Shown here piece by piece: positions 32,438-64,000 of a stretch of 64,000 nucleotides of DNA (the stretch's first letter is position 1; the number at the start of each line of letters is the position of its first letter). The position numbers were made by a program, and so were the translations under genes. The notes beneath the pieces were generated by a model. The model saw only the letters and a list, made by a program, of their open reading frames with translations, ran no database searches and was not told where the DNA came from. This DNA is from Chondrosia reniformis. Taxonomy: Eukaryota > Porifera > Demospongiae > Chondrillida > Chondrillidae. Where the stretch lies: assembly GCA_947172415.1 (NCBI GenBank), contig OX359196.1:3598501-3662500 (forward strand). Direction: 5' to 3'.

Positions 32438-34780
32438 CCTGTATCCAGATGATGTCATCCGTAACACCATCGGTCATGTGGGTCTGCGAATATATGTTGT
32501 AAATGAAGTCCTATTTATATGTCACACACTTTTGACCTTACATGCATATGCAATATATAAGATATATAATATTCAAATAAGATATATACTATATATATAA
32601 GATATAAGATATATAGAACATATTTAAGATGTATATTTGTTATTTTTTCAAGTGTCCCTGCCTGGTATTGAACCAGGGCATCCTCCTACGCTGTCTCCAG
32701 ATGATGTGAACTGTAACACCATCAGTCACGTGGGTCACCCAATATATGTTGTAAATGAAGTCCTATTTATATATCAAACACTTTTGACCTGACATAAATA
32801 TGCATATATATGCAATATATAAGATATACTATATATATATGAGATATAAGATACATAGACCATATATAAGATATATATCTTTTTCTTTTTTCATGTGTCC
32901 CAGCCTGGTTTTGAACCAGGGCATCCTTCTATGCCGTATCCAGATGATGTCATCCGTAACACCATCGGTCACGTGGGTCTCCCAATATATGTTTTAAATG
33001 AAGTCCTATTTATATAACACACACTTTTGACTCTACATTTATATGAAATATATAAGATATATACTGTATATATATAAGATATAACATATATAGAACAAAT
33101 ATAAGATGTATATTTTTTCTTTTTCAGGTGACCCAGCCTGATATCAAACCACGGCATCCTCGTGCCCTTTATCCAGATAATGTCAACCGTAACACCATCG
33201 GTCACGTGGGTCACCCTATATATGATAAAAATGAAGTCCTATTTATATATCACACACTTTTGATCTTACATATATATGCAATATATAAGATTTATACTAT
33301 ATATATATAAGATATAACATATATAGAACCTATATAGGATGAATTTTTTTTTTCAGGTGACCAATCTCCTGGTATCACACTAAGGCATCCTCGTATCCTG
33401 TATCCAGATGATATCATCCGTAACACCATCGGTCACGTAGGTCTCCCAATATATGTTGTAAGTGAAGTCCTATTTATATAACACACACTTTTGACCTTAC
33501 ATATATATATATGCAATATATAAGATATATACTATATATATGTAAGATAGAAGATATATAGAACATATATTACATGTATATTTTTTCTTTTTTCAGGTGA
33601 CCCGGCCTGCTAAAGAAACAGGGCATCCTCGTACTTTGTATCCAGATGATGTCATCCATAAGATCATCAGTCACGTGAGTCACCCAATATATGTAGTAAA
33701 TGGAGTCCTATTTATATGACACACACTTTTGACTCTACATTTATATGAAATATATAAGATATATACTGTATATATATAAGATATAACATATATAGAACAA
33801 ATATAAGATGTATATTTTTTTCTTTTTCAGGTGACCCAGCCTGATATCGAACCACGGCATCCTCGTGCCCTTTATCCAGATAATGTCAACCATCGGTTAC
33901 GTGGGTCACCCTATATATGATAAAATGAAGTCCTATTTATATATCACACACTTTTGATCTTACGTATATATGCAATATATAAGATTTATACTATATATAT
34001 ATAAGATATAACATATATAGAACCTATATAGGATGAATATTTTTTTTTCAGGTGACCCATCCTGGTATCACACCAAGGCATCCTCGTATCCTGTATCCAG
34101 ATGATGTCATCCGTAACACCATCGGTCAAGGGGGTCACCCAATATAATTTTAAATTAAGTCCTATTTATATATCACACACTTTTGACCTTACATATATAT
34201 GCATATATATGCAATATATAGGATATATGATATTCAAATCAGATATATACTATATATATATATATATATATATATAAGATATAAGATATATAGAACATAT
34301 ATAGGATGTTTACTTTTTTTCAGGTGACCCAGCCTGGTATCGAACCTGGGCATCCTCGTACCCTGTATACAGATGATGTTGTCTGTAAGATCTTCGGTCA
34401 CGTGAGTCACTCAATATATGATGTAAATGAAGTCCTATTTATATAACACACACTTTTGACCTTCCATATATATGCAATATATTAGATATATAATATTCAT
34501 ATAAGATATATACTATATATATATATAAGATATAAGATATATAGAACATATATAAGATGTACATTTTTTCTTTTTTCAGGTGACCCAGCCTGGTATTGAA
34601 CCAGGGCATTCTCGAATGCTGGATCCAGATGATGTAAACCGTATCACCAATCGTCCCGTGGGTCTCCCAATATATGTTGTAAATGAAGTCCTATTTATAT
34701 ATCACACACTTTTGACCTTACATATATATGTAATATATAAGATATATAATATACATACAAGACATATACTATATATTTAC
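32438..34780 (-). repeat. tRNA-like satellite array, block 8
   Basis: About nine monomers. Two-monomer repeats are visible: the 33080-33460 segment recurs at 33760-34140 with few changes (GATATCAAACCACGGC / GATATCGAACCACGGC cores). From 34145 rightward this block has a mirror copy ending at 64000. Confidence 0.9.
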
Positions 34781-34927
34781 TAGAGAACAATATAAAGTTT
34801 CTACAAAAATAGTGAAGATGTAGGGATGGCACAAAAGCACAGAAACAAGAAAGGGATGTTACACAGTGAAGCATTAGCTGTATATGCATGAATCATACAA
34901 CACCCTTGCTTGTAGGATTCAGCATAG
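34781..34927 (+). mobile_element. Half of a foldback element, cut at its hairpin tip
   Basis: Matches the first hairpin arm of copy A1 (7301-7447), including the flank CATACAAGACATATACTATA. It stops at GGATTCAGCATAG, just past the turn, where Helitron sequence begins. The second arm and the body are missing. Confidence 0.8.
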
Positions 34928-35366
34928 TTTGCTGCTTCTTTACATTCCTTGGAGGAAGGAACCCGTTGATCTCCTACTACACCACTCTTCAGCAATGGAG
35001 GCTTTCATTGCAAGGGAGGGAGAAATGGTTGTTCTTAATGCAGAGAACCACACTTTTGCAGAGGAGGTGCAGAGGGCTGTTGTACAATTGCAAGCCTGGA
35101 AAGATGATGCTTATCAGGATGCAGTTGCACCTATGACACTCCAAGTTCATCGAGAGGATGCTGCCAAACCTCCTGTAGAGGCTGAGGGTGGATTGATGAA
35201 CCCTGAGAATTTTCCTGAACCTCATTACTTTCAGGATGACACTGAGGGTGCAGGAAATTTATATGAAGGGATTACAAATGATGACGACAATGCCATTGGG
35301 GCAATAATTAGATGCACCCTTCCAGATGAGGTCTTTCGGCAACTAGTTTCAAACCTCAATACATAA
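34926..35366 (+). pseudogene. Helitron Rep-helicase linker fragment
   Basis: Reads IQHSLLLLYIPWRKEPVDLLL near its start. The L.LY.PWR.E..LL block is a hallmark of Helitron proteins just before the helicase. An acidic, low-conservation stretch follows (NFPEPHYFQDDTEG), then NAIGAIIRCTLPDEVF, ending at a TAA. The reading continues in the same frame past that stop as QQRVPFDIVVQYT. The upstream ATG at 34884 lies in foldback-element sequence and is not a real start. Confidence 0.7.
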
Positions 35367-35414
35367 CAACGGGTTCCATTTGACATAGTTGTTCAGTACA
35401 CTTGAGAATTACAT

Positions 35415-35918
35415 ATGTACCAAATGAAGCTACGCCCAAAAGCTCCAGAATCTTTTCATCTGTTTTTGACAGGTGGAGTGCGCACTGGTAAATCACATGT
35501 AATTAGAGCAATTAAAGAGCATTTGGAGCGCTCGGTCTCTAGTGGGCCAGACAAGCATGCATGCATCTTGATGGCACCCACAGGGGTTGCAGCCTTTAAC
35601 GTTGGAGGCCTAACCATCCACAGAGCCCTGAGACTGCAAGTAGAGCATGGCAAGACGGCCCATCAGTTACAACTGCATGCTTTAGCATTGCATGATTTGA
35701 GAAAATTGTGGCAAGGGGTGCACACTCTCATAATTGATGAAATCAGTATGGTTTCATACCAGATATTGAAGTCTGTACACAGCCGTCGGTGTGAAATTTA
35801 TGGAAATGATGAAATATTTGGTGGTTTGAATGTCATAGCTGTGGGAGACTTATACCAGCTGTCGCCTGTGAATGGGAGCCATGTTTTCAGTAAGAAACCT
35901 GGTCGTTCATCAGGCTGA
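35415..35918 (+). pseudogene. PIF1-family helicase of the Helitron, N-terminal ATPase part
   Basis: Walker A is GGVRTGKS (residues 20-27); LMAPTGVAAFNVGG is PIF1 motif Ia; Walker B is LIIDEISMV with DEIS at 108-111; GDLYQLSPV follows as motif III. This enzyme would unwind DNA 5'-3' during rolling-circle transposition. The usual Helitron Walker A is GGAGTGKS; here V-R replaces A-G. After the stop at 35916 the same frame goes on through HLWRDFFKVIEL and LNRVRIGNHT to about 36329, so the protein is interrupted rather than finished. Confidence 0.85.
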
Positions 35919-36329
35919 TTGTCTTCACACCTTTGGAGAGATTTCTTCAAGGTCATTGAATTAGAAGCTAACATGCAGCAGCAAAAAGATGCTACCTTTT
36001 CAGATATCCTTAATCGTGTCAGAATAGGCAACCACACGGTTGAAGATGTTAAAGTTTTGCACACATGATTGCTTTCCAGTGGGTCTGTGGATTTACTGGC
36101 TCCCCCATTTAATACTACCCTCAGATTGTATCCTCGTTCAGTGGATGTAGAAGGATATAATGAAACCCAGATTACATGTTGGGCAAAAGACAATCAACTG
36201 TATAGAATTGATGCAGAACATGCAATTCTACAGAGTTGAGTACAATTCTTTGCCCATGTTAATTACAATGAGGTTCCTGAATGCCTCATTCCACAGGATG
36301 ACAAAGATTGTGCTGCATTACCTCGTCAA

Positions 36330-36689
36330 TTGAAGTTAGCTGTTGGTGCCAGAGTGATGCTTCGCCGTAACATCAACTGTGGTGATGGCCTTGTGAATGG
36401 TGCCAGAGGTATAATTGTGGGATTCAAATGGCCAGGAACAACAAATAATCAGAGAAAACCTGGTGAAATGCCTACAGAGGTGTATGTCAAATTCTCAAAG
36501 GTGACAATTGCCTCTGGTGATCAGGAAGTTGTGCCGATTGCAGCAATTTCAGCATGCTTCTATGGAAAGGAAGGCACACTCTTGCAGAGAACACAGATTC
36601 CTTTGATTCTCTGCTGGGCAGCCACTGTGCATAAAGTGCAAGGTTTGTCACTTGATGCAGCAGTCATGGATCTTGGTAAGGACTTTTGA
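36330..36689 (+). pseudogene. PIF1-family helicase of the Helitron, C-terminal part
   Basis: Contains LAVGARVMLRRNIN, GLVNGARGIIVGF and then LCWAATVHKVQGLSLD (motif V-like). These are the conserved C-terminal blocks of PIF1/RecD2-type helicases. It continues the frame of the ATPase part. A one-base shift near 36680 moves motif VI (EPGMAYVALSRVHTL) into the next frame. Confidence 0.85.
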
Positions 36690-37536
36690 ACCTGGTATGG
36701 CCTATGTAGCTCTCAGTCGCGTGCATACTCTAAATGGAGTGGCCCTACTGAACTTTGAGCCACAAAAGATGACAGCAAACAAGAGAGTTCATGTGGAAAT
36801 GGCAAGGCTGCGACAACAGTCTACTTGTGGTAGTGTATTCCAAAGTGACGGGCAGACATCAGATCTATTGGTTCAGAACTGCAAACGTCCTGACAAATTA
36901 AACAGTGAAAACAGGGCCAATCCTTTGGTGGAGGACAACAGTGCTGCATTGCATAGTGAGAAGCAGACAATCTCTACTAAAAATATGGATGATGAGTTAA
37001 ATGGCAAGCAGAAGCCTTCAGTAGTCCACATGGAAGTCAGTCAATCTGTACACTTAAATCCGATTGTTAGTGTTGATGCACAGCTGGTGTCCTCACTGAA
37101 AACGGCACTAGAAGTGATAGTAAATGAAAATAGTCCAACTGTTGAGTCAATAACAAAATGGGCAAACTCTCACAGCCATGAAATAGACTGTATTTTAAAA
37201 GTGATAAATATACCTTGCAGGGCTACATTTAGCAACTGTCATCTAGTAGATATTTTGGAAAAGGAAAAGATCTTTGCAGCTGTTACTTCTCAATATGTCC
37301 CAGTGTGCACTAAAGGAGATGGTAATTGCATATATAACATGCTTTCCCTATCACTTTCTGGTACTGAGCAATGTATGTGGCACTTGAGGTTGTTGACTGC
37401 TTATAGTATAATTGTACATCGAGAACGCATGATAAAAGTCATACAACCAGTTTCAGGAATACATATACCGCCAGGGGAACGAGAGCCTCTTGCAGTTGCT
37501 AAGGCAGCAGAGAGACAGCAGTTCACTCCAAGATAA
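36652..37536 (+). pseudogene. Helitron helicase motif VI and OTU-like domain
   Basis: The first 13 or so residues are out of frame. Then MAYVALSRVHTLNGVALL is PIF1 motif VI, followed by a tail of about 150 polar residues without recognisable motifs. Residues about 217-240 read VCTKGDGNCIYNMLSLSL. GDGNC at 37315-37329 is the catalytic Cys box of OTU cysteine proteases (deubiquitinase-like). The segment ends after HIPPGEREPLAVAKAAE. The OTU C-terminus follows in another frame. Whether the protease was ever active cannot be judged. Confidence 0.75.
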
Positions 37537-37558
37537 AGCATGAGGTGACCAATTTCAT

Positions 37559-37879
37559 TTGTATGCCCTAGCTCTGATTTTAAAAAGGCCTATCTGGTTG
37601 TATGGTGTGATGTGCAACAGAAGTCTCTATCATGAAGGGGAAAGGCTCCAACCAATTAAGCATGACATTACACAAGCTGAATTAAAAGATCTTTTTAAAA
37701 TGAGAGATAAGCGATTAAATAACAAATATTGCTATTGTCCTGACTCAGTCCTGGAAGATAAAGTGCACTTAAAGTTTTTTGGATTCCTCTCATTTCACTG
37801 CCTTACTTCCAGTAGAATCTGCAAAGGTTTCAACAGATTTTGCTCCATTTGCCACCTTTTTGTCACAGTGTGGTCCTAA
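37559..37879 (+). pseudogene. C-terminal continuation of the OTU-like domain
   Basis: Just before the ATG the frame reads DQFHLYALALILKRPIWLYG, which fits the second half of Helitron OTU domains (strand region after the Cys box). DITQAELKDLFKMRDKR and VHLKFFG follow. A catalytic His could not be picked out with confidence. A one- or two-base shift separates it from the Cys-box segment. The open frame ends before the 37900-37922 hairpin. Confidence 0.55.
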
Positions 37880-37899
37880 AGAATGATTAAAAGGAACAG

Positions 37900-37922
37900 T
37901 GCAGTGGCAATGGGCCACTGCA
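37900..37922 (+). other. 8-bp-stem hairpin after the Helitron coding region
   Basis: TGCAGTGG, 7-nt loop, CCACTGCA. Helitrons carry a short hairpin near the 3' end. No CTRR terminus directly follows, so it may be an internal or unrelated hairpin. In the mirror arm the loop differs by one base (CACTGGG for CAATGGG). Confidence 0.4.
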
Positions 37923-38763
37923 TTGGGATGTGATTAAAGACAACCGTGGTGGTGATATATACATTCACATTAATTGTCCAGCAATACAAGGTGTTGGTTT
38001 AAATGCATGCCTGTTAGTGATTGTGCAGGTTTTGTTTGCATGTTATAAGAGGCAATTTGTTTTGTATACTTTTTTATTGTTTGCATGTAGATGTGTTCAC
38101 ATACTTTTCTATTTCTATTGCAAAGAAGGATAAGGAGGAGTAATGTCACTCGTAAGCCAATTATTAATCATTTTTTAAATTGCAATGAATATTTAATCAT
38201 TTCAGGGAGATTTTCTTTAATTGCAAGTTATCCAGTTTTATAGCCACTTAAAGTTTATGTCTGCACAATAAGGAAAATGTAGATCAAGTTACACTTAGTG
38301 ATTCTGGAGATGTCATGGAAAAGAAGCATTTTATTTATTGTCATATGGTAAGTAGATGCTTTACACTATTGTTGGTTTGCAAACATCATACATTCAGTGT
38401 TAAAATCTCTTTCATTATACAGGAGAGACTAATTCTTGCAAACCCAAAATTGATAAACTGGACAAGTCATTTTGGAACCAGTCTGCTACTAATTTCTACA
38501 TGGTTATAGTCACTTACATTAACTTAACTCGGAACTTCAAGGTTTCTGGCAAATTTATTTTTCTCACTAACTTTTGGTAACACTCTTTTAGAGGCTGTGT
38601 TTATTAGTTCCATTTACTGTATTCATTTTTAAGTATTTCATTTCATATCATAGATATATATGATAATAGAAGTTGCAAAAATATAATACACATTCTACAA
38701 TTTACATCTTGAGAATATCTTAAGCTTAGAATATGGCAGAATACAAAATCATCCGAAAGCCGC
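37923..38763. other. AT-rich non-coding stretch between Helitron coding part and terminal hairpin
   Basis: No protein motif or tandem repeat was seen. It holds two short frames (37930-38133, 38315-38509) that look like chance. It is probably the Helitron 3' non-coding region, since satellite resumes right after the hairpin at 38764-38824. Confidence 0.45.
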
Positions 38764-38824
38764 CAAGTAGTTCGAGTGCGTGGGAGGCGGCAGCCCCCAC
38801 GACTTTTTTAACTCGAACTACTTG
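38764..38824. repeat. Nested hairpin at the Helitron/satellite boundary
   Basis: 14-bp perfect inverted arms CAAGTAGTTCGAGT (38764-38777) and ACTCGAACTACTTG (38811-38824) enclose a second, GC-rich stem CGTGGG/CCCACG. Satellite resumes within 10 bp. Subterminal inverted repeats of this size are known from Helentrons, so this may be the element end. The mirror is at 59321-59381. Confidence 0.6.
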
Positions 38825-38829
38825 TTTCT

Positions 38830-39893
38830 TTTGTCAGGTGACCCACCCGGGTTTCGAACCAGGACATCCTTGTACCCTGTATCCAGATGATTTCATACAT
38901 AACACCATCAGTCACGTGGGTCTCCCAATATATGTTGTAAATGTAGTCCTATTTATATATCACACACTTTTGACCTTACATATATATATTATATATAAGG
39001 TATTTCATGTACATATAAGATATATACTACATATATATAAGATATAAATATATAGAACATACATAAGATGAATACTTCTTTCTTTTTTCAGGTGACTCAG
39101 CCTGGTATCAAACCAGGGCATCCTCGTACCCTGTGTCCAGATGATGTCAACCGTAACACTATCGGTCACGTGAGTCACCCAATATATGTAGTAAATGAAG
39201 TCCCATTTATATAACACACACTTTAGACCTTCGATATATATGCAAAATATAAGATATAAAATATTCAAATATGATATATACTATATATATATTAGATATG
39301 AGATGTATAGAACATATATATGATGTACTTTTTTTCTTTTCTTAGGAGTTCTCAGCCAGTTATTGAACCAGGACATCCTCCTAGGCTGTAACCAGATGAT
39401 GTCAACCATAACACCATCAGTCACGTTGGTCACCCCATATATGATGTAAATGAAGTCCTATTTATTTATCACACACCTTTGACCTTATATATATGTGTAA
39501 TATATAAGATATGCAAAATTCATATAAGATATATACTATACATATATATAAGATATAAGATATATAGAACATATATAAGATCTTTATTTTTTCTTTATTC
39601 ATGTGACCCAGCCTGGTATCGAACCAAGGCATCCTTGTACCCTGTATCCAGATGATGTCATCCGTAACACCATCAGTCACATGGGTCTCCCAAAATATGT
39701 TGTAAATGAAGTCCTATTTATATATCACACACTTTTGACTTTACATATATATGTTATATATATGGTATTTCATGTACATATAAGATATATACTATATATA
39801 TATAAAATATAAGATATATAGAACATATATTAGATGTATACTTTTTTCTTACATATATATGTTTTATATAATATATATAAAAGATATATAATG
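38830..39893 (-). repeat. tRNA-like satellite array, block 9
   Basis: Four monomers and a partial one. The first monomer is a hybrid: its left part matches the unit mirrored at about 59290 and its right part matches the unit mirrored at about 57400. This marks where 1765 bp differ between the two arms. Confidence 0.9.
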
Positions 39894-41280
39894 AAGTGAT
39901 ATGGAGTAGTTGTTGCGATCATAATTAGTTAACTGATGTTTATTGAGCTACAGCAACAGGAATATTCTTTAGAATTGAACGTTTTGATCCTAAGGTCTTC
40001 ATCAGCAATAATGAAAAGAGGAGCACAAGTGTGTTTTAAATAGATGTTGGGTGGCAGGTGGTGAGTGATGATGTAATAGTGAATTGCGCCAAATATTAAT
40101 TAGGATGAAAAATAATTAAATAAGGTGGTAGTGTTAATTAATTAAGTGTGTCCTTCCAAATGGGATCCACATTCATTCCTAAGTCCATGTTCATGCAAGG
40201 TGTTTTCTGTATTAGTATAGCCTCCTTGATCTTTCTTCTGATTTTATGTTGTTCTTTCTGTAATACTTTAGCATTCTCCCATGAGATGTCATGCAAGGTT
40301 TCTTTAACATATACAACTAGAGAGTTGTTGGTGTCAATTTTTTGTACTGGCCTTTTATGTTCCTTCATCCTGTCAATGTTTAACCAATGTACACTTGTCC
40401 GCATCTGCAAGGTATTTCATAAATGACTCCTGTCTTCTGAGTCTCTGGTAGTGGTGTCTTAATCCTGGTCAATAGGGAGCGAAGAGTGTTAGTTGCCTTG
40501 TGTCTGATTCTCACTTCCAGTGGTCTGCAAACTCCTTGTAGGGTTTCACTTAAACCTTTGATGTAAGGTAAGCAGAGGACACGTTCTCCTTCTTTAATCA
40601 GATCATCATTCCTTCTTTTCTTCTTCTTTAGTGTTCTTCTTACAAGTCCTTCTGGGTAGCCATTGGCAATGAAGGTGGTTTTGATGTGTTCAAGTTCTCT
40701 TTGTAATGATTGTCCTTTGCATAGGTGTTCAGCCCTTTTTTGAGGCATAAGATGGTGCCAATCTTGGTGGACGGATGGTGATTAGAATTGTAGTGAATAT
40801 AGCTATCGGTATGTGTAGGCTTTCTGAACACACTGGTGTGGAATTGTTGTGAAACTCTTTCGACCAAGGCATCTAAGAAAGGAAATTGTCCTTGTTTTTC
40901 TTCCTCCATTGTGAATTTGATGTTGTCCTTAATAGAGTTGAGATGTTCGAGAAAACCTTTCAGTTGTTCTTTACCATGTCTCCATATTACAAAGGTGTCA
41001 TCCACATACCTTAGCCATATAGTTGGTTTCTTGGTGGTAGAGTTGATTGCTAAGTTCTCAAAATATTCCATATAAATGTTAGCAACTACTGGGGACAGGG
41101 GGAACCCATGGCAACCCCTTCAGTTTGTTGGTAGAAATTGCCCCCAAAGTTAAAGAAAGTTGTGGTAAGGCACTTCTTCAGTAAGTCAGAAATTATGTCG
41201 GGTGGTAGGTTTTTTCTCTCCACAAGAGTTGTGTCTTTGTGTAGTAGATCCGAAACAATGCTGATGGCTTCATTGAAGCT
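39894..41280 (-). mobile_element. Penelope-like element, 5'-truncated, left-arm copy
   Basis: Minus strand. It starts within the RT (just after the motif-A region, at the INEAISIVSDLL-like block near 41277). It keeps YVDDTFVIW, the KKKKRR linker, the GIY-YIG start and the WKD C-terminus (to 40138). It ends with a 3' tail of about 220 bp, about 120 bp longer than in the copy at 799-2206. Near 40004 on the minus strand lies CTGATGA...AAAACG, a hammerhead-core-like word. The frame is broken, with several breaks shared with the other copies. Left neighbour is tRNA-like satellite; right neighbour is the 13-bp minisatellite. Confidence 0.87.
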
Positions 41281-44088
41281 TTAACTGAAATGCACTATAC
41301 AACTAGTTCTACAACTAGGACATATAAATAGCACATACAACTAGTACATATAACCAGTACATACACATATAACTAGTACTTATAAACAGTACAAAAAACT
41401 AGAATATACACTAGTACATACAAATAGTAAATACAACTAGTGTACATACAACTACTAATTCAACTTCTACCCACAACTAGTACATATAACCAGTACATAC
41501 ACATATAACCAGTACATACAACTAGAACATACAACTAGGACATAAAATAGTAACGAGAACATACAACTAGTACATTGAGCTAATACATACAAATTGTACA
41601 TACTACTAGTACATGCAACTAGCACCTACAACTAGAAAATGGAATTAGTACATACGACGAGTACATACAATTAGGACCTACCTAGTACCTAGTATAACTA
41701 CTACTAGAACCTAAAACTAGTTCATAAAACTGGTACATACAACTAGTACGTATCACTGTTTACTTGTACATACAAATAGTATATATAACTAGTACATACA
41801 ACTAGTTCATACAACTAGTACATAAAAATAGTACATACAACTAGAACCTACAACAAGTATAAACCACTGTTTACTTGTACATACAAATAGTATATATAAC
41901 TAGTACATACAACTAGTTCATACAACTAGTACATAAAAATAGTACATACAACTAGAACATACAACTAGTAAAAACCACTGTTTACTAGTACATACAAAAA
42001 GTATATATAACTAGTACATACAAGTAGTACAAACAACTAGTACATACAACTAGTACCAACAACTAGTATATACGTAGTACCTAGCATAAATAATACTAAA
42101 ACTTTCCAACTAGTACATGCAGCTAGTACAAACAACAAGTACTTGCAATTATTACATACAATTAATATATATATAAATAGTCCATAAAACTAGTAAATAC
42201 AACTAGTATATACCATTGTTTACTAGTAATTACAAATAGTATATATAACTAGAACATACAACTAATACAAACAACTAGTACATACAACTAGTACATACAA
42301 CTAGTTAACAAAAGTAGGATTTAGTACAAACAACTAGTACATACGTAGTACCTAGTATAAATAATACTAGAACTTTCCAACTAGTACATGCAGCTAGTAC
42401 AAACAACTAGTACATGCAATTAGTACATATAATTAGTACATATAATTAGTACATACACCTTTAACTAGTATAGATAAATAGTATATACAACTGGGATATA
42501 CAACTAGTAAATGCAACTAGTATATACAAGTAGTTACTACTACATTCAGCTACTACATTGAACTAGTACGTCCATTTAGTTACTAGTACAAAGAACTATT
42601 ACATACAAATAGCACATAAAACCGGTAAATACACATATAACTAGTTCATATAAACAGTACATAAAACTAGAACATACAACTAGTACATACAGCTACTAAA
42701 TACAACGTTTACACACAACTAGTACATATAACCAATACATACACATAAACTAGTACATATATCTAGTGAATACAACTAGTACTTAAAACTAGAAACTAGT
42801 TCATACAAGTAGTACATAAATCTAGTAACTAGTAAATACAACTAGTACACACAACTAGTACATAAAAGTACTAAATACAACTATTACATACAACGGGTAC
42901 ATAAAACTAGTACATAAAACTACTGCATATAACTAGTACATACAACTAGTTACTATATCTAGTAAATGTAACTAGTCCATACAACAATTATTTACAACTA
43001 GTACATACATGTAGAACATATACCCAAATACAACTAGTACATACAACTAGTTCATACAAATATATTGAACATACAACTGCTACAAACAACTAGGACATAC
43101 AACTAGTACCTACTACAAGTAAATATAGCTAGTGCTAGTACATACAACTAGTACATACAACTAGTACATGCTACTAGTAACGAGTACATAAAACTAGTAC
43201 ATACAACTAATACATTCAATTAGTACCTAGAAATAGTATATAATAACTACTACATATAACTACTAGATAGAACGAGTACATAAAACTAGTACAAACAACT
43301 ACTACAAAGAACTAGTACTACAACTCGGACATACATAATTAGTATATAAAACTAGTACAAATACCTAGTATATACAACTAGTACATATAAATAAGTCATA
43401 TATCTAGTATATACACCTGGTACATACAACTAGAACATAAAACTAGTTCCTACAACTCGTACATATAACTAGAACTAGTACATAAAACTAGTACATACAA
43501 CTAGGACATAAAAATAGTAACGAGAAGATACATGCAAACAACCAGGACATAAAAATTGAGAACAAACAACTACTACATTAAACTAGTACAAACAACTTGT
43601 ACATACTGCTAGTACATACAACTAGTACCTACAACTAGTACATACAACTAGTACATACAAGTGGTACATACAACTAGTAGATACAATTAGTACACACAAG
43701 TAGTACATATAACAATTACACACAACTAGTACAAACAAATACTTCATACAGCTAGTACCTACTTATTACCTAGTATAACTACTAATAGAACCTACAACTA
43801 GTATATACAACTAGTACTTACAAATAGTACCAACCAATAGTACATACAACTAGTACATACAACTAGTAAGCACAACTAGTACCTACAAGTAGTAAATATA
43901 ACTAGTACATACAGCAATTACCCACAACTAGTACACACAACTAGTACATATATCTAGACCATGTAACCATCCATAATACTAGTACATACAACTACTACAT
44001 ATAACTAGTACGTACAATAAGTACATACACCTAGAACATACAACCAGTACATACAACTAGTACAAACAACTAGTTCTTACGAGTAGTA

Positions 44089-44336
44089 CATAGCCAAGGA
44101 TTCACAGAAGATCAAGATAAAGAAAAAGACAAAGACTCCCAGGATCACTGATGAAGGGTGGAATTCCCAGAAACGGCAGTCTGACCCAGTGGAGAAAAAG
44201 ATGAAAGAAAGGAAAAAAGGAAAAAGACTCCTGTATCTTCATCTAAAGCTCTCTTTAGGTTTAGTTCCCCTATAGGCTCTTTTTACAGAATAGGCATATA
44301 GCATGTAGGAAAATGGTATCTTAGATTTTTCATATA
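44089..44336 (+). other. Unique insert with a Lys-rich frame
   Basis: About 250 bp without minisatellite words. A plus-strand frame reads KDSQKIKIKKKTKTPRI, then EGWNSQKRQSDPVEKKMKE, over about 50 codons before it degenerates. This could be a captured exon of a Lys-rich nuclear protein, but no start, acceptor or family is clear. Mirror: about 52044-52290. Confidence 0.35.
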
Positions 44337-44513
44337 ACTAGTACACACAACTATTACATACAATTAGTACATACAACTAGAACAAACAACTATTACATAC
44401 AACTAGGATCTACCTAGTACCTAGAATAACTAGAACTAGAACCTACAACTTGTCCATACTTTTAGTATATACACCTAGAGCAAACAACTAGTACACACAG
44501 CTAGTTCATTCAA

Positions 44514-44851
44514 CTACCGTGGTTCGGGAAATTTTCGTGTTCGGAAATTTTCGTGGAAAAAATTTTCGTGTTAAAATATTTTTGTGGTCTGGGGGCTACC
44601 ACGAAAATTTATACACGTTACGTAATTACGTTGAGAAATAGAGGATTACGAAAGGGATCTCTGTGTTCGCGGCTTTCACGAAAGTGAGCCCTTTGGGTCC
44701 GGTAAACCGTCCTTGCGCTGCAGGTATCGCAGTAGAGCCATTTTGGCCGCGCTCAGCTGTGTTGCGTTTACATATATACGTAGATTGTACAACGTGTTAT
44801 TATTCGTTGTTAAAAATAGTTTAACAACGAAAATTTCCCGAACTACGGTAG
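44514..44851. mobile_element. 338-bp MITE with CTACCGTRGTTCGGGAAATT ends
   Basis: Terminal inverted repeats of about 25 bp with one or two mismatches: CTACCGTGGTTCGGGAAATT on the left, CTACCGTAGTTCGGGAAATT on the right strand. The left end has a tandem AATTTTCGTG run; the centre is GC-richer (GGGTCCGGTAAACCG). No coding capacity. Inserted in the minisatellite. Mirror: 51528-51865. Confidence 0.75.
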
Positions 44852-48900: not shown

Positions 48901-49141
48901 TACTTCGTTAATTGCTCATACATTTTTGTCACAGATAATTACATAAATATTAGTAGACATGCAATATGCTTACTGTTTCCACTTACCTCTTGCGACAACA
49001 AAAAACTTCGATCAATGAAACTGTATCGCTCCCTTGAAGCCTTACTTGACATATCAACTTCGGAAGTCTAATGTTTGTTAATGTTTTACCAAATATTTGG
49101 GTACATATGCAAGTCATAAGACGTCATTGTATGATGGCTAA

Positions 49142-52700: not shown

Positions 52701-55090
52701 TACTAGTTGTATGTACCACTTGTATGTACTAGTTGTATGTACTAGTTGTAAGTACTAGTTGTATGTACTAGCAGTATGTACAAGTTGTTTGTACTAGTTT
52801 AATGTAGTAGTTGTTTGTTCTCAATTTTTATGTCCTGGTTGTTTGCATGTATCTTCTCGTTACTATTTTTATGTCCTAGTTGTATGTACTAGTTTTATGT
52901 ACTAGTTCTAGTTATATGTACGAGTTGTAGGAACTAGTTTTATGTTCTAGTTGTATGTACCAGGTGTATATACTAGATATATGACTTATTTATATGTACT
53001 AGTTGTATATACTAGGTATTTGTACTAGTTTTATATACTAATTATGTATGTCCGAGTTGTAGTACTAGTTCTTTGTAGTAGTTGTTTGTACTAGTTTTAT
53101 GTACTCGTTCTATCTAGTAGTTATATGTAGTAGTTATTATATACTATTTCTAGGTACTAATTGAATGTATTAGTTGTATGTACTAGTTTTATGTACTCGT
53201 TACTAGTAGCATGTACTAGTTGTATGTACTAGTTGTATGTACTAGCACTAGCTATATTTACTTGTAGTAGGTACTAGTTGTATGTCCTAGTTGTTTGTAG
53301 CAGTTGTATGTTCAATATATTTGTATGAACTAGTTGTATGTACTAGTTGTATTTGGGTATATGTTCTACATGTATGTACTAGTTGTAAATAATTGTTGTA
53401 TGGACTAGTTACATTTACTAGATATAGTAACTAGTTGTATGTACTAGTTATATGCAGTAGTTTTATGTACTAGTTTTATGTACCCGTTGTATGTAATAGT
53501 TGTATTTAGTACTTTTATGTACTAGTTGTGTGTACTAGTTGTATTTACTAGTTACTAGATTTATGTACTACTTGTATGAACTAGTTTCTAGTTTTAAGTA
53601 CTAGTTGTATTCACTAGATATATGTACTAGTTTATGTGTATGTATTGGTTATATGTACTAGTTGTGTGTAAACGTTGTATTTAGTAGCTGTATGTACTAG
53701 TTGTATGTTCTAGTTTTATGTACTGTTTATATGAACTAGTTATATGTGTATTTACCGGTTTTATGTGCTATTTGTATGTAATAGTTCTTTGTACTAGTAA
53801 CTAAATGGACGTACTAGTTCAATGTAGTAGCTGAATGTAGTAGTAACTACTTGTATATACTAGTTGCATTTACTAGTTGTATATCCCAGTTGTATATACT
53901 ATTTATCTATACTAGTTAAAGGTGTATGTACTAATTATATGTACTAATTATATGTACTAATTGCATGTACTAGTTGTTTGTACTAGCTGCATGTACTAGT
54001 TGGAAAGTTCTAGTATTATTTATACTAGGTACTACGTATGTACTAGTTGTTTGTACTAAATCCTACTTTTGTTAACTAGTTGTATGTACTAGTTGTATGT
54101 ACTAGTTGTTTGTATTAGTTGTATGTTCTAGTTATATATACTATTTGTAATTACTAGTAAACAATGGTATATACTAGTTGTATTTACTAGTTTTATGGAC
54201 TATTTATATATATATTAATTGTATGTAATAATTGCAAGTACTTGTTGTTTGTACTAGCTGCATGTACTAGTTGGAAAGTTTTAGTATTATTTATGCTAGG
54301 TACTACGTATATACTAGTTGTTGGTACTAGTTGTATGTACTAGTTGTTTGTACTACTTGTATGTACTAGTTATATATACTTTTTGTATGTACTAGTAAAC
54401 AGTGGTTTTTACTAGTTGTATGTTCTAGTTGTATGTACTATTTTTATGTACTAGTTGTATGAACTAGTTGTATGTACTAGTTATATATACTATTTGTATG
54501 TACAAGTAAACAGTGGTTTATACTTGTTGTAGGTTCTAGTTGTATGTACTATTTTTATGTACTAGTTGTATGAACTAGTTGTATGTACTAGTTATATATA
54601 CTATTTGTATGTACAAGTAAACAGTGATACGTACTAGTTGTATGTACCAGTTTTATGAACTAGTTTTAGGTTCTAGTAGTAGTTATACTAGGTACTAGGT
54701 AGGTCCTAATTGTATGTACTCGTTGTATGTACTAATTCCATTTTCTAGTTGTAGGTGCTAGTTGCATGTACTAGTAGTATGTACAATTTGTATGTATTAG
54801 CTCAATGTACTAGTTGTATGTTCTCGTTACTATTTTATGTCCTAGTTGTATGTTCTAGTTGTATGTACTGGTTATATGTGTATGTACTGGTTATATGTAC
54901 TAGTTGTGGGTAGAAGTTGAATTAGTAGTTGTATGTACACTAGTTGTATTTACTATTTGTATGTACTAGTGTATATTCTAGTTTTTTGTACTGTTTATAA
55001 GTACTAGTTATATGTGTATGTACTGGTTATATGTACTAGTTGTATGTGCTATTTATATGTCCTAGTTGTAGAACTAGTTGTATAGTGCAT
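49739..55090. repeat. 13-bp minisatellite, right array
   Basis: Mirror of 41285-46640, with the same embedded inserts: unique stretches at about 50332-50555 and 52044-52290, and the 338-bp MITE at 51528-51865. Array length matches the left arm to within a few bases. This is unusual for a minisatellite and points to very recent duplication or allelic origin. Confidence 0.92.
51528..51865. mobile_element. 338-bp MITE, right-arm copy
   Basis: Same length and ends as the copy at 44514-44851, reverse orientation. Confidence 0.75.
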
Positions 55091-55099
55091 TTCAGTTAA

Positions 55100-56490
55100 A
55101 GCTTCAATGAAGCCATCAGCATTGTTTCGGATCTACTACACAAAGACACAACTCTTGTGGAGAGAAAAAACCTACCACCCGACATAATTTCTGACTTACT
55201 GAAGAAGTGCCTTACCACAACTTTCTTTAACTTTGGGGGCAATTTCTACCAACAAACTGAAGGGGTTGCCATGGGTTCCCCCTGTCCCCAGTAGTTGCTA
55301 ACATTTATATGGAATATTTTGAGAACTTAGCAATCAACTCTACCACCAAGAAACCAACTATATGGCTAAGGTATGTGGATGACACCTTTGTAATATGGAG
55401 ACATGGTAAAGAACAACTGAAAGGTTTTCTCGAACATCTCAACTCTATTAAGGACAACATCAAATTCACAATGGAGGAAGAAAAACAAGGACAATTTCCT
55501 TTCTTAGATGCCTTGGTCGAAAGAGTTTCACAACAATTCCACACCAGTGTGTTCAGAAAGCCTACACATACCGATAGCTATATTCACTACAATTCTAATC
55601 ACCATCCGTCCACCAAGATTGGCACCATCTTATGCCTCAAAAAAGGGCTGAACACCTATGCAAAGGACAATCATTACAAAGAGAACTTGAACACATCAAA
55701 ACCACCTTCATTGCCAATGGCTACCCAGAAGGACTTGTAAGAAGAACACTAAAGAAGAAGAAAAGAAGGAATGATGATCTGATTAAAGAAGGAGAACGTG
55801 TCCTCTGCTTACCTTACATCAAAGGTTTAAGTGAAACCCTACAAGGAGTTTGCAGACCACTGGAAGTGAGAATCAGACACAAGGCAACTAACACTCTTCG
55901 CTCCCTATTGACCAGGATTAAGACACCACTACCAGAGACTCAGAAGACAGGAGTCATTTATGAAATACCTTGCAGATGCGGACAAGTGTACATTGGTTAA
56001 ACATTGACAGGATGAAGGAACATAAAAGGCCAGTACAAAAAATTGACACCAACAACTCTCTAGTTGTATATGTTAAAGAAACCTTGCATGACATCTCATG
56101 GGAGAATGCTAAAGTATTACAGAAAGAACAACATAAAATCAGAAGAAAGATCAAGGAGGCTATACTAATACAGAAAACACCTTGCATGAACATGGACTTA
56201 GGAATGAATGTGGATCCCATTTGGAAGGACATACTTAATTAATTAACACTACCACCTTATTTAATTATTTTTCATCCTAATTAATATTTGGCGCAATTCA
56301 CTATTACATCATCACTCACCACCTGCCACCCAACATCTATTTAAAACACACTTGTGCTCCTCTTTTCATTATTGCTGATGAAGACCTTAGGATCAAAACG
56401 TTCAATTCTAAAGAATATTCCTGTTGCTGTAGCTCAATAAACATCAGTTAACTAATTATGATCGCAACAACTACTCCATATCACTTCATT
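55100..56490 (+). mobile_element. Penelope-like element, 5'-truncated, right-arm copy
   Basis: Plus-strand mirror of 39894-41280. The coding blocks differ from the left-arm copy by about one residue (WKDILN here, WKDTLN there). The 3' tail includes CTGATGA (56375-56381), then AGACCTTAGGATC and AAAACG: spacing like the core of the hammerhead ribozymes known from Penelope-like elements, but the GAAAC box reads AAAAC. The tail ends near TATCACTTCATT before satellite. Confidence 0.87.
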
Positions 56491-57865
56491 ATATATCTTT
56501 TATATATATTATATAAAACATATATATGTAAGAAAAAAGTATACATCTAATATATGTTCTATATATCTTATATTTTATATATATATAGTATATATCTTAT
56601 ATGTACATGAAATACCATATATATAACATATATATGTAAAGTCAAAAGTGTGTGATATATAAATAGGACTTCATTTACAACATATTTTGGGAGACCCATG
56701 TGACTGATGGTGTTACGGATGACATCATCTGGATACAGGGTACAAGGATGCCTTGGTTCGATACCAGGCTGGGTCACATGAATAAAGAAAAAATAAAGAT
56801 CTTATATATGTTCTATATATCTTATATCTTATATATATGTATAGTATATATCTTATATGAATTTTGTATATCTTATATATTACACATATATATAAGGTCA
56901 AAGGTGTGTGATAAATAAATAGGACTTCATTTACATCATATATGGGGTGACCAACGTGACTGATGGTGTTATGGTTGACATCATCTGGTTACAGCCTAGG
57001 AGGATGTCCTGGTTCAATAACTGGCTGAGAACTCCTAAGAAAAGAAAAAAAGTACATCATATATATGTTCTATACATCTCATATCTAATATATATATAGT
57101 ATATATCATATTTGAATATTTTATATCTTATATTTTGCATATATATCGAAGGTCTAAAGTGTGTGTTATATAAATGGGACTTCATTTACTACATATATTG
57201 GGTGACTCACGTGACCGATAGTGTTACGGTTGACATCATCTGGACACAGGGTACGAGGATGCCCTGGTTTGATACCAGGCTGAGTCACCTGAAAAAAGAA
57301 AGAAGTATTCATCTTATGTATGTTCTATATATTTATATCTTATATATATGTAGTATATATCTTATATGTACATGAAATACCTTATATATAATATATATAT
57401 GTAAGGTCAAAAGTGTGTGATATATAAATAGGACTACATTTACAACATATATTGGGAGAACCACGTGAGTGATGGGGTTCCGGATGACATCATCTTGATA
57501 CAGGGTACGAGGATGCCCTGGTTCAAAACCAGGCTGGGTCACCTGAAAAAAGAAAAAGTATAAATCTGATATATGTTCTATATATCTTATATCTTATATA
57601 TATATAGTATATATCTTATATGTATATTACATATCTTATATATTACATATATATGTAAAGTCAAAAGTGTGTGATGTATTAATAGGACTTCATTTACATC
57701 ATACATTGGGTGAACAACGTGCCCGATGGCGTTACGGTTGACATCATCTGGATACAGGGTACGAGGATGCCCTGGTTCGATACCAGGCTGGGTCACCTGA
57801 AAAATAAAATAAGTATACATCTGATATATTTTCTATATATTTTATATCTTATATATATATATAGT
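56491..57865 (+). repeat. tRNA-like satellite array, block 10 (reversed)
   Basis: Five monomers and part of a sixth. The tRNA-like unit now reads on the plus strand, for example around 56692-56775. The monomers after about 57400 have no counterpart in the left arm. Confidence 0.9.
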
Positions 57866-58627
57866 AAGAGAACAATAAAAATTTTCTGCAAAAATAGTGA
57901 AGATGTAGGGATGGCACAAAAAGCATAGAAACAAGAAAGGGATGTTACACAGTGAAGCATTAGCTATATATGCATGAATCATACAACACCCTTGCTTGTA
58001 GGATTCATGCATAGCTAATGCTTCACTGTGTAACATCCCTTTCTTGTTTCTATGCTTTTTGTGCCATCCCTACATCTTCACTATTTTTGTAGAAAATTTT
58101 TATTGTTCTCTAGTTTCTGTACTTTTTATGGAGCATAAGCTAGGAATTCGTTGTATTTTAAACCACTTTGGTTTCGCAATCTTCGACTGATTATGACGTC
58201 ATTAAAATGGCGAATTTATTGAGGTCTTGACTCTTGAGCCATGAAAACTGTCATACTCAATAATAGCGTTATCGCTCTCGCTTCTACAAAAGAATACAGC
58301 TCGGAAAATTTAGAGTAATTTCGATTAAGAAGTAGTCCGAAGGCTTATTTCGTTTTTTAGTTACAGCGGGCGAAGAAGATGAAGAAGAAGAAGAAGATGA
58401 AGAAGAAGAAAACGAAAATGGGAGATTTCAAAGTTCGTTCATTTGCCAACGATACATGGTCGCTTGCCTTCAAGGCCAATTTATAGCATGTTTGTTCTAT
58501 ATTTAACTCTACATAGTCTCGTTTTGGCGATTTTCAGCCTAATTCGGAATTTTGCTCCTATACCAATGTATGGGGAAAACGAAACTACCCGTACCATCCC
58601 TACATAGAGAGTACTACCGTAATCTCT
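57866..58627 (+). mobile_element. Foldback MITE-like element, copy A4 (right arm only)
   Basis: Full copy with the A1 orientation: the long hairpin (about 57880-58100) turns at CAACACCCTTGCTTG, TGACGTCA lies near 58195, the GAA/GAT triplet run at about 58375-58408, and the end is GAGAGTACTACCGTAATCTC. It has the best-paired hairpin of all copies. It is absent from the left arm because of the 1765-bp difference there. Confidence 0.82.
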
Positions 58628-59320
58628 GATATATCTTATATGTACGTACATGAAATACCTTATATATAACATATATATGTAAGGTCAAAAGTGTGTGATA
58701 TATAAATAGGACTACATTTACAACATATATTGGGTGACCCACGTGACTGATGGTGTTACAGGTGACATCATCTGGTTACAGCTTACGGGGATGTCCTTAT
58801 TCAATAACATGCTGGGACTCCTAAGAAAAGAAAAAAAGTACATCTTATATATGTTCTATATATTTATATCATATACATATAGTATATATCTTATATGTAT
58901 ATTATATATTTTATATATTGCATATATATCGAAAGTCAAAAGTGTGTGTTATATAAATAGGACTTCATTTACTACATATATTGGGTGACTCACGTGACCG
59001 ATGATCTTACGGTTGACATCATCTTGATACAGGGTACGAGGATGCCCTGGTTCGATACCAGGCTGGGTCACCTAAAAAAGAAAAAGTATACATCTGATAT
59101 ATGTTCTATATATCTTATGTCTTATATGTATATAGAATATATCTTTAATATATCTTATATATTACATATATATGTAAGGTCAAAATTGTGTGATATATAA
59201 ATCTTTACATCATATATTGGGAGACCCACGTGACTGATGGTGTTATGTATGAAATCATCTGGATACAGGGTACAAGGATGTCCTGGTTCGAAACCCGGGT
59301 GGGTCACCTGACAAAAGAAA
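58628..59320 (+). repeat. tRNA-like satellite array, block 11 (reversed)
   Basis: About two and a half monomers. The last one (59160-59300) has a shortened region after GATATATAAAT, where the usual AGGACTTCATT is partly lost. It meets the Helitron boundary hairpin. Confidence 0.88.
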
Positions 59321-59381
59321 CAAGTAGTTCGAGTTAAAAAAGTCGTGGGGGCTGCCGCCTCCCACGCACTCGAACTACTTG
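59321..59381. repeat. Nested hairpin at Helitron boundary, right-arm copy
   Basis: Same 14-bp arms and inner GC stem as 38764-38824. Confidence 0.6.
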
Positions 59382-60222
59382 GCGGCTTTCGGATGATTTT
59401 GTATTCTGCCATATTCTAAGCTTAAGATATTCTCAAGATGTAAATTGTAGAATGTGTATTATATTTTTGCAACTTCTATTATCATATATATCTATGATAT
59501 GAAATGAAATACTTAAAAATGAATACAGTAAATGGAACTAATAAACACAGCCTCTAAAAGAGTGTTACCAAAAGTTAGTGAGAAAAATAAATTTGCCAGA
59601 AACCTTGAAGTTCCGAGTTAAGTTAATGTAAGTGACTATAACCATGTAGAAATTAGTAGCAGACTGGTTCCAAAATGACTTGTCCAGTTTATCAATTTTG
59701 GGTTTGCAAGAATTAGTCTCTCCTGTATAATGAAAGAGATTTTAACACTGAATGTATGATGTTTGCAAACCAACAATAGTGTAAAGCATCTACTTACCAT
59801 ATGACAATAAATAAAATGCTTCTTTTCCATGACATCTCCAGAATCACTAAGTGTAACTTGATCTACATTTTCCTTATTGTGCAGACATAAACTTTAAGTG
59901 GCTATAAAACTGGATAACTTGCAATTAAAGAAAATCTCCCTGAAATGATTAAATATTCATTGCAATTTAAAAAATGATTAATAATTGGCTTACGAGTGAC
60001 ATTACTCCTCCTTATCCTTCTTTGCAATAGAAATAGAAAAGTATGTGAACACATCTACATGCAAACAATAAAAAAGTATACAAAACAAATTGCCTCTTAT
60101 AACATGCAAACAAAACCTGCACAATCACTAACAGGCATGCATTTAAACCAACACCTTGTATTGCTGGACAATTAATGTGAATGTATATATCACCACCACG
60201 GTTGTCTTTAATCACATCCCAA
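59382..60222. other. Non-coding stretch, mirror of 37923-38763
   Basis: Nothing recognisable beyond what its left-arm partner shows. Confidence 0.45.
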
Positions 60223-63217
60223 TGCAGTGGCCCAGTGCCACTGCACTGTTCCTTTTAATCATTCTTTAGGACCACACTGTGACAAAAAGGTGGCAAATGG
60301 AGCAAAATCTGTTGAAACCTTTGCAGATTCTACTGGAAGTAAGGCAGTGAAATGAGAGGAATCCAAAAAACTTTAAGTGCACTTTATCTTCCAGGACTGA
60401 GTCAGGACAATAGCAATATTTGTTATTTAATCGCTTATCTCTCATTTTAAAAAGATCTTTTAATTCAGCTTGTGTAATGTCATGCTTAATTGGTTGGAGC
60501 CTTTCCCCTTCATGATAGAGACTTCTGTTGCACATCACACCATACAACCAGATAGGCCTTTTTAAAATCAGAGCTAGGGCATACAAATGAAATTGGTCAC
60601 CTCATGCTTTATCTTGGAGTGAACTGCTGTCTCTCTGCTGCCTTAGCAACTGCAAGAGGCTCTCGTTCCCCTGGCGGTATATGTATTCCTGAAACTGGTT
60701 GTATGACTTTTATCATGCGTTCTCGATGTACAATTATACTATAAGCAGTCAACAACCTCAAGTGCCACATACATTGCTCAGTACCAGAAAGTGATAGGGA
60801 AAGCATGTTATATATGCAATTACCATCTCCTTTAGTGCACACTGGGACATATTGAGAAGTAACAGCTGCAAAGATCTTTTCCTTTTCCAAAATATCTACT
60901 AGATGACAGTTGCTAAATGTAGCCCTGCAAGGTATATTTATCACTTTTAAAATACAGTCTATTTCATGGCTGTGAGAGTTTGCCCATTTTGTTATTGACT
61001 CAACAGTTGGACTATTTTCATTTACTATCACTTCTAGTGCCGTTTTCAGTGAGGACACCAGCTGTGCATCAACACTAACAATCGGATTTAAGTGTACAGA
61101 TTGACTGACTTCCATGTGGACTACTGAAGGCTTCTGCTTGCCATTTAACTCATCATCCATATTTTTAGTAGAGAATGTCTGCTTCTCACTATGCAATGCA
61201 GCACTGTTGTCCTCCACCAAAGGATTGGCCCTGTTTTCACTGTTTAATTTGTCAGGACGTTTGCAGTTCTGAACCAATAGATCTGATGTCTGCCCGTCAC
61301 TTTGGAATACACTACCACAAGTAGACTGTTGTCGCAGCCTTGCCATTTCCACATGAACTCTCTTGTTTGCTGTCATCTTTTGTGGCTCAAAGTTCAGTAG
61401 GGCCACTCCATTTAGAGTATGCACGCGACTGAGAGCTACATAGGCCATACCAGGTTCAAAAGTCCTTACCAAGATCCATGACTGCTGCATCAAGTGACAA
61501 ACCTTGCACTTTATGCACAGTGGCTGCCCAGCAGAGAATCAAAGGAATCTGTGTTCTCTGCAAGAGTGTGCCTTCCTTTCCATAGAAGCATGCTGAAATT
61601 GCTGCAATCGGCACAACTTCCTGATCACCAGAGGCAATTGTCACCTTTGAGAATTTGACATACACCTCTGTAGGCATTTCACCAGGTTTTCTCTGATTAT
61701 TTGTTGTTCCTGGCCATTTGAATCCCACAATTATACCTCTGGCACCATTCACAAGGCCATCACCACAGTTGATGTTACGGCGAAGCATCACTCTGGCACC
61801 AACAGCTAACTTCAATTGACGAGGTAATGCAGCACAATCTTTGTCATCCTGTGGAATGAGGCATTCAGGAACCTCATTGTAATTAACATGGGCAAAGAAT
61901 TGTACTCAACTCTGTAGAATTGCATGTTCTGCATCAATTCTATACAGTTGATTGTCTTTTGCCCAACATGTAATCTGGGTTTCATTATATCCTTCTACAT
62001 CCACTGAACGAGGATACAATCTGAGGGTAGTATCAAATGGGGGAGCCAGTAAATCCACAGACCCACTGGAAAGCAATCATGTGTGCAAAACTTTAACATC
62101 TTCAACCGTGTGGTTGCCTATTCTGACACGATTAAGGATATCTGAAAAGGTAGCATCTTTTTGCTGCTGCATATTAGCTTCTAATTCAATGACCTTGAAG
62201 AAATCTCTCCAAAGGTGTGAAGACAATCAGCCTGATGAACGACCAGGTTTCTTACTGAAAACATGGCTCCCATTCACAGGCGACAGCTGGTATAAGTCTC
62301 CCACAGCTATGACATTCAAACCACCAAATATTTCATCATTTCCATAAATTTCACACCGACGGCTGTGTACAGACTTCAATATCTGGTATGAAACCATACT
62401 GATTTCATCAATTATGAGAGTGTGCACCCCTTGCCACAATTTTCTCAAATCATGCAATGCTAAAGCATGCAGTTGTAACTGATGGGCCGTCTTGCCATGC
62501 TCTACTTGCAGTCTCAGGGCTCTGTGGATGGTTAGGCCTCCAACGTTAAAGGCTGCAACCCCTGTGGGTGCCATCAAGATGCATGCATGCTTGTCTGGCC
62601 CACTAGAGACCGAGCGCTCCAAATGCTCTTTAATTGCTCTAATTACATGTGATTTACCAGTGCGCACTCCACCTGTCAAAAACAGATGAAAAGATTCTGG
62701 AGCTTTTGGGCGTAGCTTCATTTGGTACATATGTAATTCTCAAGTGTACTGAACAACTATGTCAAATGGAACCCGTTGTTATGTATTGAGGTTTGAAACT
62801 AGTTGCCGAAAGACCTCATCTGGAAGGGTGCATCTAATTATTGCCCCAATGGCATTGTCGTCATCATTTGTAATCCCTTCATATACATTTCCTGCACCCT
62901 CAGTGTCATCCTGAAAGTAATGAGGTTCAGGAAAATTCTCAGGGTTCATCAATCCACCCTCAGCCTCTACAGGAGGTTTGGCAGCATCCTCTCGATGAAC
63001 TTGGAGTGTCATAGGTGCAACTGCATCCTGATAAGCATCATCTTTCCAGGCTTGCAATTGTACAACAGCCCTCTGCACCTCCTCTGCAAAAGTGTGGTTC
63101 TCTGCATTAAGAACAACCATTTCTCCCTCCCTTGCAATGAAAGCCTCCATTGCTGAAGAGTGGTGTAGTAGGAGATCAACGGGTTCCTTCCTCCAAGGAA
63201 TGTAAAGAAGCAGCAAA
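60223..63217 (-). mobile_element. Decayed Helitron fragment, right-arm copy
   Basis: Mirror of 34928-37922. The PIF1 parts lie at 62227-62730 (Walker A, Walker B) and 61456-61815, helicase motif VI plus the OTU Cys box at 60609-61493, the OTU end at 60266-60586, and the linker at 62779-63219. The frames end at the same places as in the left arm, so the stops are older than the duplication. Differences noticed include NVYEG for NLYEG and QTFST for QTIST. Confidence 0.82.
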
Positions 63218-63364
63218 CTATGCTGAATCCTACAAGCAAGGGTGTTGTATGATTCATGCATATACAGCTAATGCTTCACTGTGTAACATCCCTTTCTTGT
63301 TTCTGTGCCTTTGTGCCATCCCTACATCTTCACTATTTTTGTAGAAACTTTATATTGTTCTCTA
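63218..63364 (-). mobile_element. Half of a foldback element, right-arm copy
   Basis: Mirror of 34781-34927, joined to the Helitron at the same base. Confidence 0.8.
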
Positions 63365-64000
63365 GTAAATATATAGTATATGTCTTGTATGTATATTATA
63401 TATCTTATATATTACATATATATGTAAGGTCAAAAGTGTGTGATATATAAATAGGACTTCATTTACAACATATATTGGGAGACCCACGGGACGATTGGTG
63501 ATACGGTTTACATCATCTGGATCCAGCATTCGAGAATGCCCTGGTTCAATACCAGGCTGGGTCACCTGAAAAAAGAAAAAATGTACATCTTATATATGTT
63601 CTATATATCTTATATCTTATATATATATATAGTATATATCTTATATGAATATTATATATCTAATATATTGCATATATATGGAAGGTCAAAAGTGTGTGTT
63701 ATATAAATAGGACTTCATTTACATCATATATTGAGTGACTCACGTGACCGAAGATCTTACAGACAACATCATCTGTATACAGGGTACGAGGATGCCCAGG
63801 TTCGATACCAGGCTGGGTCACCTGAAAAAAAGTAAACATCCTATATATGTTCTATATATCTTATATCTTATATATATATATATATATATATATAGTATAT
63901 ATCTGATTTGAATATCATATATCCTATATATTGCATATATATGCATATATATGTAAGGTCAAAAGTGTGTGATATATAAATAGGACTTAATTTAAAATTA
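63365..64000 (+). repeat. tRNA-like satellite array, block 12 (reversed)
   Basis: About two and a half monomers, mirror of 34145-34780. The window ends inside a monomer, so the array continues to the right. Confidence 0.9.

Follow-up and report, generated by a model that had tools for sequence, protein, structure and literature searches.

A probable recent inverted duplication in repeat-rich DNA of chromosome 8 of the sponge Chondrosia reniformis

The stretch of Chondrosia reniformis DNA analysed here, 64,000 nucleotides of chromosome 8 (C8:3598501-3662500, hereafter the window), probably carries a genuine and recent inverted duplication, lying in repeat-rich and probably pericentromeric heterochromatin. 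It shows mirror symmetry with sharp ends, a near-uniform divergence of 0.16% between the arms, a complex inner junction, a run of N at which no bases are missing, and changes private to each arm. The genome comprises 117,379,552 bases in 15 contigs and, in the account of assembly odChoReni1.1 given by PMC12181767, is described as 117.37 Mb in 14 chromosomes plus the mitochondrion, produced by hifiasm (primary mode), purge_dups and YaHS (contig breaking on), and consisting of 42 contigs in 14 scaffolds, therefore with 28 gaps. The HiFi data reported in the same account amount to 10.31 Gb in 0.80 million reads (PMC12181767), which gives a mean read of about 12.9 kb; this exceeds the centre of the duplication and is shorter than either arm (17.3 and 19.5 kb), and the junctions are therefore within reach of reads. 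The pericentromeric setting is suggested by the relatives of its repeats, which, among the matches listed, lie mostly in the middle of each chromosome.

Self-comparison of the window found 38819-47003 to be the reverse complement of 49376-57560 at 99.7% identity, and 34145-39534 to match 58629-64000 in inverted orientation at 98.3%. An earlier note on this DNA had described a mirrored pair at 34145-47003 and 49376-64000; the inverted duplication is present, but the limits 34145 and 64000 had been imposed by the end of the window. When flanking chromosome was added, the arms extended over 29722-47003 and 49376-68914, the outermost 4.9 kb of the right arm lying beyond the window. The centre of 2.4 kb that had been described between the arms was confirmed, at 2,372 bp. 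The main parts are:

29722-47003, plus strand: left arm, 17,282 bp, from the arm alignment, with homology ending at 29721 and 47004
47004-49375, plus strand: centre (spacer), single at full identity; copies related to it elsewhere show it collinear with the right arm
48701-48900: run of 200 N, read as a scaffold gap without missing bases
49376-64000, continuing to 68914 (C8:3667414) outside the window, minus strand: right arm, reverse complement of the left, 19,539 bp in total

The near-identity of the arms, which had been noticed from inspection of the letters, was borne out by a global alignment, with 28 substitutions, 18 of them transitions, among 17,068 aligned bases (0.164%). These are scattered along the arms, except for a cluster of seven that spans 99 bp of two neighbouring satellite units, and the divergence per 500 columns of the alignment is 0-0.7%, with one bin at 1.4%. 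Beyond 29722 and 68914, homology is lost abruptly when the flanks are aligned as well. An identity gradient along the arms, hinted at by BLAST chunks, was refuted by the global alignment, the lower BLAST identity of the outer half being due to satellite register. Six indels distinguish the arms: 1,765 bp and 702 bp found in the right arm only, 214 bp in the left arm only, and three of 1-2 bp. The two inverted copies surround a spacer of normal copy number, as among the matches listed the spacer occurs at 100% in one place only. A 3-kb query from the inner arm has, among the matches listed, only two of about 100%, the next matches of more than 600 bp being 79% or less identical; shorter inserts of the inner arm (325-530 bp) recur at 82-99% among the matches listed. 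In these genome-wide searches absence is weak evidence, for a query from C3:3161501-3171500 (bases 1-6000) missed its own place and the outer-junction query missed the left-arm copy.

The repeats that make up the two arms are as follows:

24795-31762, plus strand: 254-bp satellite block, within which the left arm starts, at 29722, the array being unbroken
32438-34664, plus strand: 254-bp satellite block of the left arm; its right-arm partner, 63481-66411, is 702 bp longer
34926-38827, plus strand: Helitron-like element of the left arm, 5'-truncated, with PIF1-helicase pieces
38829-39687, plus strand: 254-bp satellite block, its first left-arm unit a chimera of two right-arm units, with 1,765 bp lost
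39999-41276, minus strand: reverse-transcriptase fragment (RVT_1) of the left arm
41297-47003, minus strand: 13-bp minisatellite with inserts, left arm
49376-55083, plus strand: 13-bp minisatellite with inserts, right arm
55104-56381, plus strand: RVT_1 fragment of the right arm, its end taken from the arm alignment
57446-59210, minus strand: the 1,765 bp present in the right arm only, satellite units plus about 0.93 kb of other sequence
59318-63219, minus strand: Helitron-like element of the right arm, its ends taken from the arm alignment

Each arm carries changes of its own. The chimeric satellite unit of the left arm goes together with the 1,765 bp that are absent relative to the right arm, and this segment was lost from the left arm by recombination between two satellite units. 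The extra 702 bp of the right arm are a gain by that arm, three units whose copies match one another exactly and have their differences from the left arm in common. A change of 214 bp affects one arm, and a minisatellite stretch has changed by 1 bp. Given these private changes, the arms are evolving separately, and their homogenisation is incomplete. The earlier statement that minisatellite lengths are equal in both arms stands to within 1 bp for the 13-bp stretches and does not extend to the 254-bp satellite arrays, which are unequal.

Pfam was run on 20 ORFs, namely 10 of the 15 that reach 150 aa within the window and a further 10 from the 29 that reach 70 aa and overlap 34000-49400; the left arm holds 14 of the 20. 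Matches above the curated cut-offs were to RVT_1 (three ORFs) and to PIF1/AAA helicase domains (two ORFs), and four others fell short of the cut-off or were weak. None of the 20 ORFs gave a host gene domain, in a search that short exons would escape, and no Rep domain was found in the Helitron-like element. In the window, Rfam detected no RNA gene at its gathering scores, and ARAGORN, run with the bacterial code, no tRNA. The 254-bp satellite (window 15489-39687 and other blocks) carries GGTTCGATACC on its minus strand, which resembles a tRNA B box. Copies of the Helitron-like element on chromosomes 1 and 6 are 99.6% identical over 5.4 kb, and the 3' end of such copies has a double hairpin and no CTRR, as in Helentrons. 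Near the left end of the window (770-2209, together with the 1.5 kb to the left of position 1) is an inverted pair of the reverse-transcriptase element, 97.7% identical, with a gap of about 0.8 to 1.1 kb.

Around the spacer, several small features mark the inner ends of the arms:

47004-47010: filler of 7 bases at the inner junction, without counterpart in five related minisatellite stretches
47011-47045, minus strand: reversed minisatellite piece, in left-arm orientation, ahead of the turn of the array to plus
47039-47050: perfect 12-bp palindrome GTACATATGTAC, read from the sequence, at the site where the minisatellite changes orientation
47073-48450, plus strand: 13-bp minisatellite array of the centre, unit GTACTAGTTGTAT
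49368-49383: small hairpin, CGAAAA-TACG-TTTTCG, whose loop contains the arm boundary 49375/49376

The reversed minisatellite piece is about 35-45 bp long and ends in the palindrome at the turn to plus orientation. The inner end of the left arm is the loop of a hairpin whose intact form sits on the right, at 49368-49383. Seven related copies likewise end their match at 47003 or one base before it, and the inner join is therefore particular to the left side. The centre continues into the right arm in five of six relatives, at 88-90%, while the match of the sixth ends at 49259, short of the boundary, and this inner evidence appears to place the spacer with the right arm. No inverted match of at least 5 bp was found between the ends of the spacer (1,461 of 2,000 shuffles had one), and the pre-event sequence to the left of 47004, against which matches of 2-4 bp would have to be judged, is gone. 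A strong DNA hairpin at the inner junction was considered and rejected, the fold of 47000-47110 being no better than that of shuffles (z 0.11; 107 of 200 at least as good).

The right arm ends, on its outer side, partway through a unit of the 254-bp satellite and is followed by a 23-bp-type minisatellite, and a match through the whole outer-junction query was found only here, among the matches listed. Some satellite matches run about 45 bp beyond this end, so the junction is placed only to within some tens of bases. The minisatellite beyond it (about GGGATATATTCGGCAAAAACTAT) extends from C8:3667415 to about C8:3682400 and, among the matches listed, was seen on chromosome 8 only. On the left, the satellite array crosses 29722 unbroken. 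A 1,469-bp block of six satellite units occurs there as a tandem repeat of almost 100% identity, which straddles the arm boundary (window 27333-30270). All 15 of the plus-strand 254-bp satellite blocks found lie in the left arm or to the left of it, all four of the minus-strand blocks lie in the right arm, and the right flank, followed to 163,900, yielded none. As the 254-bp satellite domain to its left is in plus orientation, the left arm is more likely to be the parental one. Set against this, the collinearity of the spacer with the right arm means that a simple one-step fold-back would need either a later flip of the spacer or a satellite-mediated join.

Most likely, the duplication began with a break or a stalled fork within the 13-bp minisatellite array, and repair copied the chromosome back on itself, by fold-back synthesis or by a template switch to the other strand. 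Satellite and transposon debris amounting to at least 17 kb would have been mirrored in this way, leaving a single-copy spacer of 2.4 kb; copying would have ended inside a 254-bp satellite unit, the end then being joined to the different, 23-bp-type minisatellite. The spacer could later have been flipped by arm-to-arm recombination, and such a flip, a sister fusion or template switching would reconcile the inner and outer evidence, the alternative being a right-side fold-back with a satellite-mediated join. The assembled order, the repair mechanism and the identity of the copied arm are inferred.

The earlier description of the centre had left its 200 N bases unmentioned. They are the only N in 223,900 bases examined, with none in 160 kb of flank, and under 28 randomly placed gaps the expectation of such a run within the 2.4-kb centre is about 0.0006. 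Its presence there is improbable by chance, and therefore something at the locus disturbed assembly or scaffolding. The bases on either side are adjacent, with 0 missing, in six of six related copies (from chromosomes 1 and 9, and two each from chromosomes 3 and 10), the two from chromosome 3 being related to each other. A length of 200 N is the usual gap size of YaHS. A mask applied by a tool was rejected as the source: the run does start at a multiple of 100 in chromosome coordinates, in keeping with a mask, but the six relatives have no bases there to hide; one may suppose that such a start would also fit a binned Hi-C cut. YaHS is described in PMC9848053, in its passages on contig breaking, as breaking contigs where Hi-C coverage is absent. 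Near-identical arms would draw few uniquely mapped Hi-C pairs. The run probably represents one contig that was cut and then rejoined in the same order, and it would serve as a caution that N within a palindrome need not denote an allelic misjoin, and may reflect a cut and rejoin with nothing missing.

The earlier note had offered two options, a genuine young palindrome or two allelic contigs, and it is the former that the present results favour. That the arms are two alleles of one locus, set head to head by the assembler or scaffolder, is unlikely, even with the N-run inside the centre and a primary/alternate hifiasm assembly in whose curation, according to the account in PMC12181767, 20 misjoins or missing joins were corrected and 4 haplotypic duplications removed. 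Two contigs that merely ended at the N-run should overlap or lack some bases, so the adjacency of its flanks in all six relatives counts against an allelic join, and two independently ending contigs would not give it. Moreover, the homology ends at 29722 and 68914 in gap-free sequence, not at contig ends. Comparison of the flanks (left 89.7 kb against right 95 kb) gave, in the best 25 rows, dispersed repeats of 75-96% that are non-collinear, and an allelic overlap would therefore have to begin and end inside contigs. The divergence of the arms, 0.16%, is also lower than the heterozygosity of 1.0-1.3%, which is six or more times as high but is a rough value, derived by hand from k-mer completeness (69.43% for the primary, 74.54% for the alternate and 93.73% for the combined assembly, as given in PMC12181767); regions of low diversity also exist. 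A chimeric hairpin read, left by a missed adapter, was rejected as the origin of the arms, because they are longer than the mean read and carry 28 differences. The assembler may still have erred at 47003/47004.

Two other explanations accept the palindrome as real. It might be old, its arms kept similar through gene conversion between them, as happens on sex chromosomes; near-identical arms, a short spacer, sharp ends and a possibly flipped spacer would all agree with this, but the satellite length changes private to each arm (1,765, 702 and 214 bp) do not, there is no host gene among the 20 ORFs searched with Pfam for selection to keep alike, and no sign of a sex chromosome was seen, which makes this reading very improbable. 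As for the sex-chromosome kind of palindrome raised in the earlier note, nothing seen ties the locus to such a chromosome, and the 14 left-arm ORFs scanned gave no host gene domain. It would be more surprising still if the palindrome were a single mobile element with very long inverted ends. A related Helitron-like subfamily does form inverted pairs of comparable size, on chromosomes 2, 3 and 11, but the arms are a mosaic of several repeats, and they end in the middle of a satellite unit and within a repeated stretch flanking the minisatellite, rather than at the ends of an element. Among the matches listed, the pieces used as queries were nowhere else together, and no second copy of both junctions appeared.

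A genuine, young inverted duplication has parallels in other systems. In the human fold-back inverted duplications of Hermetz et al. 2014, as far as the cases set out in PMC3907307 go, a spacer of a few kb is typical, five have inserted and/or inverted junction sequence, and the junctions have 2-8 bp of inverted homology. The sponge locus resembles them in its mirror copy, few-kilobase spacer, extra inserted or inverted junction bases and, apparently, a second end joined elsewhere, and differs from the cases described there (PMC3907307) in its size (17-19.5 kb against megabases), in its interstitial position, where the second end showed no telomere, and in the absence of an inverted match of at least 5 bp between the ends of the spacer. 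With the sex-chromosome palindromes described in PMC11168930 (apes) and PMC7023750 (willow) it shares long, near-identical arms, whereas, compared with those descriptions, no host genes were found here among the ORFs searched, no link to a sex chromosome was seen, and the arms are not fully homogenised. Near-identical neighbouring copies beside a run of N are also what a haplotypic duplication artefact of a primary assembly looks like, but here the bases are continuous across the run, the homology is bounded and the divergence low.

Mirrored repeats occur on other chromosomes as well. On chromosome 3, C3:4214501-4224500 and C3:3161501-3171500, which lie 1.05 Mb apart, mirror each other for about 9.2 kb with an identity of 92-96%. 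Among the opposite-strand pairs on this chromosome that are more than 1 Mb apart, five of seven share an axis at 3.693-3.698 Mb, in a hand-picked set and not a scan; two of the five have the same partner, and one is the mirrored stretch just described. As a lead, this points to a possible large inverted repeat of old date that would enclose a core of chromosome 3. A second, short palindrome on chromosome 3, around 2,891,421 (C3:2882311-2900532), has symmetric matches around a Helitron-like element, and its outer arms are 99.65% identical (1,998 bp compared). Chromosomes 2 and 11 have Helitron-like inverted pairs of similar size, and chromosome 14 has a smaller pair; because of the related pairs on chromosomes 2 and 11, the short palindrome of chromosome 3 may be a composite element. 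That mirrored duplication is recurrent in the pericentromeres of this sponge, fresh on chromosome 8 and old on chromosome 3 (92-96%, about 3.69-3.70 Mb, with a core of about 1.05 Mb), is a decidedly doubtful proposition, but if true the recurrence would resemble a centromere core flanked by inverted arms.

Duplications of this type are already known, and the present one looks like an ordinary chromosome rearrangement, with no function found. If real, it would provide a young inverted duplication, well resolved and readable at both junctions, from an animal that is not among the usual models. It would also allow an internal comparison of clocks, with 28 base changes on one side and, on the other, three satellite length changes and one 1-bp minisatellite change since the copy was made.
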